From positions 1-64,000 of the forward strand of contig NZ_JAGGNR010000018.1 of assembly GCF_018614975.1 (NCBI RefSeq): a DNA stretch of 64,000 nt, read 5' to 3'. Below are positions 52,283 to 55,422 of the stretch, one piece after another. The stretch is from Paenibacillus polymyxa. GTDB taxonomy: Bacteria > Bacillota > Bacilli > Paenibacillales > Paenibacillaceae. The translations under genes were made by a program, and so were the position numbers. The notes under the pieces are model-generated. The model did no database searches. It saw only the letters and a program-made list of their open reading frames with translations, and was not told the origin of the DNA. The first letter of the stretch is position 1. Each line of letters opens with the position of its first letter.

Positions 52283-52717
52283 TTGAACACACATCGCCGA
52301 TTCTCTAAAAAGAAAATGATTATCTTGTCCGCCATCATACTCGGAATCGCCATCGTCGCTTTTATGAGCTTTCTGAATGCAATGGATCCCTTTCGACATT
52401 TAAGGATCACAATCCATAATCAGTCCGACTATGACCTCACCAATATTCAGGCTAGCCTGGTACAAGGCGACAACTCATTTAACAACAACGAGAGTGGCTC
52501 CACCTACATATTCGATAAGGATATTCTCAGCGGAGCAAACGTGAAATTCGCCCCGAAGCTGAAACTCTCCGGGGAGGGGGCCGTCTCCTTGGCGTTTACG
52601 GACAGCCGCGGAAAAACCTATACCAAAACGGTTTGCGGTTATACGGAATACTTGTCCGGCAACTCCTATGTTACTGTAACCAATGAGAATGTCACCGTGA
52701 AAGAGGAATGTATGTAA
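52283..52717 (+). CDS. Small membrane-anchored extracytoplasmic protein, function unknown
   Basis: I do not recognise this 144-residue protein. It has a basic N terminus (NTHRRFSKKK), one hydrophobic helix (MIILSAIILGIAIVAFMSFL) acting as signal or anchor, and an outside domain of about 110 residues. That domain opens with ITIHNQSDYDLTNIQASL and looks like a small beta-sandwich. It contains two Cys (near residue 117 and at the penultimate position) that could form a disulfide. The start is a TTG with AAGGAG 9 nt upstream. It converges on the Spo0E-like gene and shares its terminator region. Confidence 0.75.
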   Translation: MNTHRRFSKKKMIILSAIILGIAIVAFMSFLNAMDPFRHLRITIHNQSDYDLTNIQASLVQGDNSFNNNESGSTYIFDKDILSGANVKFAPKLKLSGEGAVSLAFTDSRGKTYTKTVCGYTEYLSGNSYVTVTNENVTVKEECM

Positions 52718-52746
52718 TAACGATACTTCGCTCTGTGGACTTATGT

Positions 52747-52823
52747 TAAAATATAGGGGCGAGCGACCCGCCAAAGTTTCTCGCCCAAAGTCGATTGAAT
52801 TATTCAATCGGCTTTTTTATTTT
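52747..52823 (+). terminator. Convergent terminator pair, possibly a small RNA
   Basis: Two hairpins lie between convergent genes: GGGCGAG/CTCGCCC (52757-52786) and GTCGATTGAAT/ATTCAATCGGC followed by TTTTTT on the plus strand (52789-52815). The second terminates the plus-strand gene; the first, read on the minus strand and followed by TATATTTT, probably terminates the Spo0E-like gene. An extended minus-10 (TGTTAAAAT, 52744-52752) just upstream leaves open a 65-nt RNA. Confidence 0.6.
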
Positions 52824-52970
52824 AACCTGATTGTATTGATTAATGAGATCATCCAGGACTATAGATTGCTGTATAACATGAGGATGAAGAAGATCTCCAT
52901 AGTCCACCTTGAGTTGATAGAGCTTTTGCCTCGCTGCTTCGATCTGCAACTTGAGCTTACCACAATCCAT
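52800..52970 (-). CDS. Spo0E-like aspartyl-phosphate phosphatase
   Basis: A 56-residue two-helix protein of the Spo0E family, which dephosphorylates Spo0A-P and so delays sporulation. The signature S-x-x-L-D-x-L-I is present as SIVLDDLINQY near the C terminus, preceded by a helix (LKLQIEAARQKLYQLK) and the loop GDLLHPHV. The ATG at 52970 follows GGGAGGGGTG; an upstream ATG at 52994 has no signal. Its position just downstream of a peptide-responsive regulator suggests, but does not prove, a shared role in developmental control. Confidence 0.85.
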   Translation of the reverse strand: MDCGKLKLQIEAARQKLYQLKVDYGDLLHPHVIQQSIVLDDLINQYNQVKIKKPIE

Positions 52971-53042
52971 ATTCACCCCTCCCTGTTGTAACATTCTAGT
53001 CCATTCTGCTAATTAGTAGGAAATCAGGCGAACTCCAACACG

Positions 53043-53093
53043 AAAAAGCTCCCTTCAGCGTAGACAATTCACTAATCTACTTGAGGGAGCTTC
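53043..53093 (-). terminator. Rho-independent terminator of the receptor-peptide operon
   Basis: AAGCTCCCT.AAGTAGA pairs with TCTAC..AAGGGAGCTT, then TTTCG on the minus strand, 35 nt after the peptide gene stop. Confidence 0.85.
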
Positions 53094-53127
53094 TCATATT
53101 AAAGGAGTTTCTTTTCAGAAATGTTGG

Positions 53128-53265
53128 TTAACTCCCTGTGCCGTGGCCATTGGTCTTTATGATTGCTGGACGTTCTATATCAAGGGAGATTGGTTGAATA
53201 GTAGGAATAATTACTCCTACGGCGATACTGCATGTAAATATAAATGTTGCCAATTTCATCTTCAT
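53128..53265 (-). CDS. Secreted quorum-sensing pro-peptide (AloP/AimP/Phr type)
   Basis: A 45-codon frame beginning 6 nt after the receptor stop. The N terminus is a signal peptide: MKMK, then LATFIFTCSIAVGVIIP (about residues 5-21). A short spacer and a polar C terminus ending in NGHGTGS follow. This is the layout of RRNPP signal precursors, where a 5-7-residue C-terminal fragment is released outside and re-imported. By analogy with Paenibacillus polymyxa Alo peptides (I recall SHGRGG) the mature form could be GHGTGS. GGGAGG, inside the last codons of the receptor, lies 11 nt before the ATG, implying coupled translation. A terminator follows. It has no other overlapping gene. Confidence 0.82.
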   Translation of the reverse strand: MKMKLATFIFTCSIAVGVIIPTIQPISLDIERPAIIKTNGHGTGS

Positions 53266-53271
53266 TCGTCT

Positions 53272-54615
53272 TCATACCTCCCGAATCAATTGTTTGTATC
53301 GTAGTTTAGCTTCTTCGACTGCACCATACCAAAATTCTTCAAATAATTTTATACATTCTAGAATACTATCTTTATTCTTAATTTTAATTGCAAAATCCAA
53401 ACCGTTAAGAATCAACTCAAATCCTCTGTTATAATCTTCATGTTTTAAATAGTATGTCCCTAGGCCCACAAGCAAAGTACCATATTGATCATTCGTATAT
53501 TGCTCGCTGATTTTTCCAATACGGCTACTCTGTTCCTGGTACATGAAATAAGCTTCATACGTTTCAAGAACTGAATCAATATTGATATCAAACCGATTTG
53601 CCGCATTCACAATTGCACATAAAGCAGGAAAGATCTCATTCTCTCTCTCAGAGATGTAATTCATATAACTTTGGATAACCTCTGTTTTACCTGACATTAG
53701 TTCATATAGATATCGGTTGCCTTCTGCCCATTCTTCGAATTGACGAATAACGACAGTTTCCTCTTCGCTCGGATCATTTACCCAACTATAGTCGGTGTAC
53801 AACGAAACATATTGAAGTGCTTTTTCATATTCTTCATAATAGAAACAAGCCTCTCCAAGCATCAAATATGCGTATGAAACGTAAAAAATATCCTGCTTTT
53901 TGAGTTTAGCTTCAGTTGCTCCAGATGTTTCCCTTAACTCATAATGAATCATTGCTTTTAACTTTAACTGATTAGCAAGACCCCTCACCTTATCCCATCG
54001 ACGCAAGGATGCATACACATTAATCAGGTCGTTCAGTCCATCCAACTGGTAAGGCTCGTCAAGCCGATCTACAAAAAACTCAAACTGCGTGGCAAGTGTA
54101 AGATTGCTCAACTGATCCTGGGAAAGCCCGATTGTGAACAAACGATACTGACTTAGAGCTAACCGTTCAGAATGCTGCATTTTCTCGCCCTCAGCTACAC
54201 AAAGGTACAGGGGCTTGGCCGCTTCAAGCCTCCCTTCATGATATAACTGTTCAGCCAATTCGAATAAAAGCGGTGCATAGGAAAGATTATCCATAATTAG
54301 ATTAACGGCTTCTTCCATATAATTGATCTTACCGAGTTCGGCACAACGGTATAAAAAAGGCCCAAGTCTTCGCCAATCCGGACTTGCATGTACAAAACAC
54401 TCATTTATGTATAATTCATAGAAGTAACCCTCTGTTAAACCCATCCCGGCAGTAAGTCGATCCAACTGCTGCATGCCAATAGGACGCAGCCCGTTCAGCG
54501 TGCCACTCAACGTCCCTGAATTAATTCCCGATATCTCAGAGAATTGATTGAGTGTCATATGGTTCGTTTTTAAGTAGTCTGCTAAATGATCACGTATTGT
54601 GGCTACTGAGTTCAA
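53272..54615 (-). CDS. RRNPP-family peptide receptor and transcription regulator (AloR/AimR-like)
   Basis: A 447-residue intracellular receptor. The N terminus is an Xre-type helix-turn-helix (about residues 5-60, with MTLNQFSEISGINSGTLSGTLNG), followed by about 380 residues of helical repeats of TPR type (for example YEEYEKALQYVSLYTDYS), the peptide-binding module of the RRNPP family. The start is a TTG (54615) with AAAGGTGG 7 nt upstream; the frame extends 11 codons further without a signal. It is directly followed by a secreted pro-peptide gene. In the related arbitrium and Alo systems, peptide binding alters DNA binding. The targets are not known; its own promoter region contains a near-palindrome. 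Confidence 0.85.
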   Translation of the reverse strand: MNSVATIRDHLADYLKTNHMTLNQFSEISGINSGTLSGTLNGLRPIGMQQLDRLTAGMGLTEGYFYELYINECFVHASPDWRRLGPFLYRCAELGKINYMEEAVNLIMDNLSYAPLLFELAEQLYHEGRLEAAKPLYLCVAEGEKMQHSERLALSQYRLFTIGLSQDQLSNLTLATQFEFFVDRLDEPYQLDGLNDLINVYASLRRWDKVRGLANQLKLKAMIHYELRETSGATEAKLKKQDIFYVSYAYLMLGEACFYYEEYEKALQYVSLYTDYSWVNDPSEEETVVIRQFEEWAEGNRYLYELMSGKTEVIQSYMNYISERENEIFPALCAIVNAANRFDINIDSVLETYEAYFMYQEQSSRIGKISEQYTNDQYGTLLVGLGTYYLKHEDYNRGFELILNGLDFAIKIKNKDSILECIKLFEEFWYGAVEEAKLRYKQLIREV

Positions 54616-54687
54616 AGGTACACCACCTTTCCAAACAAAATTAAGCAATGGTCAATTAAATAATACTATACACCTCAGTTAATTAGC

Positions 54688-54709
54688 AATATTTTACTTG
54701 TAAATATTT
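54688..54709. promoter_or_regulatory. Near-palindrome upstream of the receptor gene, candidate operator
   Basis: On the minus strand AAATATTTAC-AA-GTAAAATATT forms a two-fold symmetric site about 75 nt upstream of the receptor start, just before a likely promoter (TTGCTA, 18 nt, TATTAT). A dimeric helix-turn-helix regulator could bind here and autoregulate. The high AT content means chance is not excluded. Confidence 0.4.
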
Positions 54710-54796
54710 AACTATATATTCAATGGGTTAGATACCTTTTATCTTTTAGGAACTTAAGTTTTATCTACCTTGATATAATTTGATATATAGTGCAAA

Positions 54797-54828
54797 ACAA
54801 AAACCTGCCCAATTTAGTTGAGCAGGTC
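54797..54828 (-). terminator. Rho-independent terminator upstream of the receptor gene
   Basis: ACCTGCTCAA pairs with TTGGGCAGGT, with a T-run on the minus strand. It ends whatever is transcribed from the decayed region at 54.85-55.1 kb. Confidence 0.8.
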
Positions 54829-54851
54829 TTTGTGGAAAAATCACCATCAGT

Positions 54852-55095
54852 TTGATTCAAAATTTTATCATTTATGTTGTATTCCTCAGCCTACGAAATT
54901 AAGAACTTTTCTTGAATCCTGCTTTTCGAATACAATTTCGTTAAATGCCACTCCACTATCTACAATTTCTTTTAACGACTATCATGTTTTCTTGAATAGA
55001 ATAAACCTCTTGCTTCAATACTTCTTGATGTTCTGGATCACTATACAAGGTATTGAGTCTACTACTATCTATTTAAAAAGAGTTTTTTCAATCAT
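54852..55095 (-). pseudogene. Possible decayed gene, many in-frame stops
   Basis: One minus-strand frame starts at an ATG (55095) and, despite at least five stop codons, reads coherent segments: IVVDSIPCIVIQNIKKY and later EIVDSGVAFNEIVFEKQDSR, with KVLNFVG close behind. A terminator follows. It is AT-rich. I cannot name the family, and low-complexity chance similarity is possible, so this is a weak call. Confidence 0.25.
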
Positions 55096-55131
55096 ATCAA
55101 TTGACTTCTTACAAAAATATAGTTTTTAAGC

Positions 55132-55159
55132 AAAAGGCGTGTAGCTATCGCCACACGCC
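55132..55159 (-). terminator. Terminator-like hairpin after the solitary CRISPR repeat
   Basis: GGCGTGT pairs with ACACGCC (55136-55142 with 55153-55159), then TTTTGCTT on the minus strand. It begins 28 nt downstream of the repeat. Confidence 0.6.
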
Positions 55160-55186
55160 GAAAATATAATACCCAATAGTTCATTG

Positions 55187-55219
55187 ATTTCAATCCACGC
55201 ACTCCATACGGAGTGCGAC
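55187..55219 (-). CRISPR. Solitary type I-C CRISPR repeat (33 bp)
   Basis: On the minus strand the sequence starts GTCGCACTCC, continues GTATGGAGTGCG and ends TGGATTGAAAT, the classical type I-C repeat with its GCACTCC/GGAGTGC stem and the ATTGAAA 3' end. No second copy lies within several hundred bases on either side and there are no cas genes in the window. The bases beyond the repeat (CAATGAACTATTGGG...) take the place of a first spacer but run into a terminator-like hairpin instead of another repeat. Confidence 0.85.
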
Positions 55220-55297
55220 AGAGAAATTACGCGCAATAAAATCACATAAAACATAATCACACGCGTAACTGCGATACTTCGAACAAATAATACGTTC

Positions 55298-55327
55298 ATT
55301 ATATGCCACGCCAACGTATAATCTCAA
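55298..55327 (-). promoter_or_regulatory. Promoter reading into the solitary CRISPR repeat
   Basis: On the minus strand TTGAGA and TATAAT are 18 nt apart, with the repeat starting about 80 nt downstream, the layout of a CRISPR leader promoter. The sequence between is AT-rich. Confidence 0.65.
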
Positions 55328-55376
55328 CCTACCTGTTGCCAAATAGTCACGAAAACAACGTATTCGACAAATTTCG

Positions 55377-55422
55377 AGGTGCGAATCCCCCAGGGAAATC
55401 ATGTGAGCTTGGGGTTCGCACC
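55377..55422. repeat. Hairpin holding a 20-nt motif shared with the fni 3' region
   Basis: GGTGCGAATCCCC pairs with GGGGTTCGCACC (one bulged base) right after the SWIM gene stop. Its loop contains CCCCCAGGGAAATCATGTGA (55387-55406), repeated exactly at 59493-59512 after fni. There is no T-run. Confidence 0.65.

Follow-up and report, generated by a model that had tools for sequence, protein, structure and literature searches.

A four-part cassette in the window (the whole stretch of 64,000 nucleotides of Paenibacillus polymyxa DNA that was analysed) very probably is an Alo-type (AloR-AloP) RRNPP quorum-sensing pair that controls the adjoining spo0E gene. The cassette consists of an HTH-TPR regulator, a 45-codon frame, a terminator hairpin and a Spo0E-like gene with its own short promoter region.

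The Alo family is already known. Alo systems of P. polymyxa, in which a receptor gene is followed by a peptide gene, were described in 2020 (Voichek et al. 2020, PMC7425212), and AloR is one of the known subfamilies listed by RRNPP_Detector (PMC10075063). What is new is a candidate signal, GHGTGS, with a family-wide HGxG core, and a block at the spo0E promoter that is conserved even without a peptide. Also new are lineages of peptide-less receptors that still lie before spo0E, and the loss, in the clade of the window, of the usual overlap of aloR and aloP.

Layout of the cassette

The features are listed in Table 1. A first-pass annotation of the letters had called an HTH-TPR receptor with a TTG start, a 45-codon follower in the same frame 6 nt on, and a ribosome site within the receptor's end. 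Its coordinates are right. The strand, which it did not state, is minus for the whole cassette.

Table 1. Features of the cassette and its flanks, in window coordinates.
Feature	Position	Strand	Basis or remark
aloR, HTH-TPR peptide receptor/regulator	53272..54615	(-)	TTG start, 447 aa
aloP, 45-aa pro-peptide MKMKLATFIFTCSIAVGVIIPTIQPISLDIERPAIIKTNGHGTGS	53128..53265	(-)	ATG at 53265
Predicted mature-signal codons, GHGTGS	53131..53148	(-)	Register of SHGRGG in AloP13 and family alignment; inferred
Intrinsic terminator hairpin and T tract, 3' of aloP	about 53042..53095	(-)	Folding, z -5.1
Block TGTTGGAGTT...TTTCCTACTAATTAGCAGAATGG, candidate AloR operator over the spo0E -35 region	53001..53042	(-)	Conservation
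spo0E promoter -10 element TAGAAT	52993..52998	(-)	No recognisable -35 hexamer
spo0E-like aspartyl-phosphate phosphatase gene	52800..52970	(-)	56 aa from ATG; PF09388 match
aloR promoter-like site TTGCTA-18-TATTAT	54660..54689	(-)	9/12 matches; conserved in alignment
Conserved block ATATTTACAAGTAAAATATTG upstream of aloR, possible regulator site	54687..54707	(-)	Alignment

The Spo0E-like neighbour is a clear match to PF09388 (E 9e-13, 48.4 bits against a cut-off of 23). The terminator was found by folding a 93-nt stretch, with the z score taken against shuffles. Its stem and T tract are conserved in the 87-91% orthologues and in one further locus (L004). A simple terminator scan did not list it, because the loop is longer than that scan allows. 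An Rfam search of 52500-55400 gave no match.

Outside the cassette, at 55187-55219 on the minus strand, the window holds a single GTCGCACTCCGTATGGAGTGCGTGGATTGAAAT, which we take to resemble a type I-C CRISPR repeat. There is no second copy in the window, and one further copy, with 1 mismatch, lies at G000:C8:76229-76261. These look like solo repeats without an array.

The receptor

The most likely start of aloR is TTG 54615. It is preferred over the in-frame TTG 54648 because AAAGGTGG lies just 5' of it, at the right distance, and because the published AloR13 starts at the homologous codon. In every relative the region around this start is conserved. The promoter-like site further upstream is not enriched over shuffles. 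The block ATATTTACAAGTAAAATATTG next to it contains the dyad TTTAC-AA-GTAAA, adjoining the -35, and is present in most orthologues.

An N-terminal HTH and a C-terminal TPR-like superhelix are seen in the Pfam matches of members of the receptor alignment (HTH_26/HTH_3 and TPR_2) and in an AF2 model of the receptor that is all-helical and confident (pLDDT 89). Taken alone, the window receptor has Pfam TPR and HTH scores under the cut-off. In a PDB fold search PlcR (3u3w, E 3e-3) and RapF (3ulq, E 6e-3) ranked under generic eukaryotic TPR proteins, which dominate such a search because of the superhelix shape. A PDB sequence search gave no significant RRNPP match. An AF2 fold of a receptor-propeptide fusion, with the stop read through, was also tried and set aside: the peptide part has a pLDDT of 26-34 and no binding site can be read from it.

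The pro-peptide

The peptide starts in the frame of the receptor, 6 nt past its stop, and GGGAGG lies within the final receptor codons. Its N terminus looks like a signal peptide, KMK followed by a hydrophobic stretch as judged by hydropathy only, and its C terminus is NGHGTGS. With the terminator, both ends had already been pointed out in the first-pass annotation. At 45 aa it is a short downstream frame, in the 32-50 aa range expected of Alo systems, with a hydrophobic, signal-like N terminus.

Among the 84 non-overlapping window frames of at least 120 codons, the receptor alone is followed by a frame of 30-60 aa that has a ribosome site, begins with charged residues and continues into a hydrophobic stretch. 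Markov sequences matched in composition give such a frame in 0.14% of cases.

In six close orthologues, the differences in aloP at codon positions 1, 2 and 3 number 52, 68 and 180. The dN/dS ratio in this set is 0.33 over the whole frame; it falls to 0.09 for the 7 C-terminal residues and reaches 0.53 for the linker. The two alternative frames give 1.09 and 0.92. AloP is therefore under purifying selection at the protein level, most of all at its C-terminal end, which is the part that counts most, and is not a product of chance.

This bears on two other readings of the frame. If it were a chance or decayed open frame, its loss beside several related receptors would be easy to understand. However, it is intact in all seven members of the nearest lineage, and likewise in Paenibacillus sp. 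OVF10 despite a broken receptor there, and its dN/dS of 0.33 stands against about 1 in other frames. The selection pattern already refutes this idea, which keeps practically no probability.

The frame could also be a small hydrophobic peptide with some other job, such as a membrane toxin, a bacteriocin or a modulator, next to an AloR that is an ordinary regulator. Small hydrophobic frames beside regulators are indeed common in toxin-antitoxin and bacteriocin loci. Yet what is selected most strongly here is the polar HGxG C terminus, and for the family the secretion of AloP fragments and the activity of a C-terminal hexapeptide have been published (PMC7425212). We consider this reading highly improbable.

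For a pro-peptide of the Alo type, the mature signal would most likely be the C-terminal hexapeptide GHGTGS, because it is in register with SHGRGG of AloP13.

The first-pass annotation expected the peptide to be missed by annotation, which is true in part. NCBI annotates AloP on a P. polymyxa plasmid, but a P. xylanexedens plasmid (L118:3319-3447) carries an unannotated AloP-like frame ending MGHGVGWG, which overlaps the annotated AloR. On that plasmid a Spo0E-family gene lies about 1.7 kb beyond the AloP-like frame.

Relatives across Paenibacillus

A scan of species genomes found ten relatives of 63-93% identity, all in Paenibacillus. Across the genus, 66/75 genomes searched contain strong relatives, mostly several in each. 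The genome of the window itself has five full-length AloR copies, with peptide endings NGHGTGS, NDHGLGT, HHHGGGSL and MEHGWGT, and one copy without a peptide. It also has an additional partial receptor match with a nearby frame ending NHGSGY.

The proposed genus search for receptors with a small frame, C termini aligned, covered 102 AloR loci, some of them redundant between collections. A hydrophobic-start, signal-peptide-like frame with HG in its last 12 residues is present in 74/102. HGxG is found in 53/62 distinct peptides, against 1.5% after shuffling. HG served to pick among candidate frames, which shaped both of these counts; that choice does not account for the surplus of HGxG over HG by itself.

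On the receptor tree, loci with like peptide endings group together: there are 24 changes against a shuffled mean of 38.7, a difference to which near-identical rows contribute. In the sub-clade of the window all seven receptors retain a peptide, with the ending NGHG[T/M]GS. Endings are of the form NSHG[L/F]G[S/G/T] in the sister clade and [N/A]DHG[L/F]G[T/S] in the paralogous clade.

In relatives, aloP overlaps aloR by 38 nt in another frame, whereas in the window clade there is the 6-nt gap. A stop in GTATGA makes the receptor of this clade 13 residues shorter, and with it the overlap is gone.

Some loci do not follow the common pattern. In four from the P. polymyxa group (L062, L063, L064 and L068), the peptide of the nearest receptor extends 10 residues beyond SHG[L/M]GG (WALSSPEPSA in L062). 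A mature signal would therefore need a second cut, or else the stop was lost. At an alo13-type locus (L055, genome G028), AloP ends GHGNGNYSTYGHGNGH, with two signal-like repeats per pro-peptide.

Two Brevibacillus phages also carry related genes. In phage Emery (gp60-gp61, L116:2402-3885) an AloR-like receptor is followed by a 43-aa hydrophobic-start frame that contains HGGIGW twice, possibly a phage-borne Alo-like signal. In phage SecTim467 (L115:2161-3892) an AloR-like protein (25.8% identity, E 9e-40) comes directly after a phage Spo0E-like gene, and the small frame annotated downstream of it does not begin with a hydrophobic stretch.

Receptors without a peptide

The peptide is lost in nine receptor rows, with four label changes on the tree; the losses make up separate peptide-less lineages. 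Orthologous receptors lacking the small frame had been named in advance as evidence against the pair. Some related receptors do lack it, in lineages apart, but all seven in the sub-clade of the window keep it.

Among peptide-less receptors in the 62-68% range with enough flanking sequence, spo0E is still downstream. In L008 and in L030/L113 a peptide-less aloR copy has a complete pair on one side and spo0E on the other. The order at L008:2893-6408 and in L113 is an aloR-aloP pair, the peptide-less aloR and spo0E; L008 adds a third, divergent aloR-aloP on the opposite strand.

Paenibacillus sp. OVF10 (CP094668.1; L009, L010) has the locus near both ends of a 7.24-Mb chromosome record. There the receptor reading is broken by indels or frameshifts, the aloP frame is intact, and small indels separate the two copies. 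Since the copies are near the record ends and the listed differences are small indels, the double locus is probably an unresolved overlap of a circular assembly, and the broken receptors an assembly or sequencing artefact.

Comparison with known systems

Of the known systems, Alo13 of P. polymyxa ATCC 842 is the nearest. Mass spectrometry has detected secreted fragments of P. polymyxa AloPs, and SHGRGG, the hexapeptide of Alo13, lowers spo0E by a factor of 4.5. When placed in B. subtilis, AloR13 activates the spo0E promoter, and the peptide shuts it off (PMC7425212). The combination of secretion, SHGRGG activity, and receptor activation with peptide shut-off of spo0E is published for Alo13 only (PMC7425212).

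The alo13 locus was recognised as L054, where six published primers match exactly, five of them completely and Alo13_F over the 19 bases after the start codon. Its peptide ends SHGRGG.

Like the window, Alo13 has a full-length homologous receptor, a hydrophobic-start pro-peptide with a C-terminal [S/G]HGxG[G/S], and the order aloR-aloP-terminator-promoter-spo0E. The receptors share 32% identity over 456 columns (BLASTP, E 3e-84). With this homology and the conserved peptide frame and C terminus, the RRNPP/Alo reading of the first-pass annotation holds, and its hint at sporulation agrees with what was tested experimentally for Alo13.

There are also differences. In Alo13, aloP overlaps aloR by 50 nt, and the signal is SHGRGG instead of GHGTGS. 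The spo0E promoter block of the window shows no obvious resemblance to its counterpart at alo13. An AloR13 query against the window's own genome finds the window receptor, but its best match is another paralogue. The two receptors are in separate, well supported clades; the window pair is therefore a paralogous Alo system, of the NGHG[T/M]GS type, and not an orthologue of Alo13.

The nearest P. polymyxa AloR, that of L062, is 46% identical to the window receptor. Its peptide contains SHGLGG and differs by the 10-residue tail; no spo0E was seen in the stretch examined. The arbitrium system AimR-AimP of Bacillus phages also has an HTH-TPR receptor, a secreted pro-peptide downstream and a peptide that lowers the next gene (comparison from PMC7425212). 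It differs in having another receptor subfamily and phage lysogeny as its target.

Probable control of spo0E

Of the loci with a peptide in the 63-91% clade, 13 run straight into spo0E; the others there reach a contig end or a second aloR copy first. The stretch that separates spo0E from the aloP terminator holds the block TGTTGGAGT...T..TTT...TAATTAGCAGAATG, ahead of a -10 (TARAAT) that has no recognisable -35. This block is conserved through the receptor clade, peptide-less receptors included. The mean major-base frequency is 0.85-0.91 in the block against 0.57 just upstream, and close relatedness of the sequences may account for part of this conservation. An insertion of about 100 nt in L005/L033 stops at its border.

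An activator site would be expected to have this appearance, and AloR may bind there. A dyad in the block (CTAATTAG, or the arms TTGGA/TTCCTA) is not conserved in all orthologues and is not claimed. A regulon search of the window's own genome, allowing up to 3 mismatches, found the two conserved blocks, ATATTTACAAGTAAAATATTG and that of the spo0E promoter, once each and nowhere else.

Given a paralogous receptor and an unlike promoter block, the direction of control could differ from that in Alo13. AloR could be a repressor, or its main targets could be its own operon or other alo genes, with spo0E a mere neighbour. A receptor only 32% identical to AloR13 leaves room for this, the conserved dyad block upstream of aloR could serve self-regulation, and in P. 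polymyxa the peptide lowers other alo genes too (PMC7425212). Against it, the same promoter block with spo0E downstream is found in the 13 peptide-bearing loci and in loci with a peptide-less receptor, and the promoter under the block lacks a -35, as activation would predict. We regard such an arrangement as unlikely.

Proposed mechanism and meaning

In the preferred reading, that of an Alo pair controlling spo0E, the hydrophobic N terminus of AloP would serve for its export, and cleavage outside the cell would yield a hexapeptide from the C-terminal end, in all likelihood GHGTGS. This would re-enter through an oligopeptide permease and bind the TPR superhelix of AloR. Peptide-free AloR would bind the conserved block just upstream of spo0E and activate the weak, -35-less promoter; peptide-bound AloR would release the DNA. 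In B. subtilis, loss of Spo0E favours Spo0A phosphate and sporulation. A drop in Spo0E would thus favour Spo0A phosphate and entry into sporulation at high cell density. The gene content and order, the selection on the peptide, the homology to AloR13 and the conservation of the promoter block are shown here, whereas we infer that the pair acts as Alo13 does, which residues form the signal, and where AloR binds.

A further suggestion is offered tentatively, as something we think may well turn out otherwise. In this Alo clade, receptors would bind the one conserved block over the -35-less spo0E promoter, and which signal each of them hears would depend on the residue that precedes HG (G, S or D). 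The peptide-less paralogues with the same block, some of them inserted between a pair and spo0E, would be eavesdroppers or constant activators. If true, these paralogues would tune the sporulation brake.

This finding carries spo0E-linked Alo systems past P. polymyxa into the P. pabuli/P. xylanivorans group, with a species that the list of 149 bacteria in PMC7425212 may already include. With a candidate signal, an HGxG core and a candidate operator, both density control of sporulation and the code between receptors and signals become testable.
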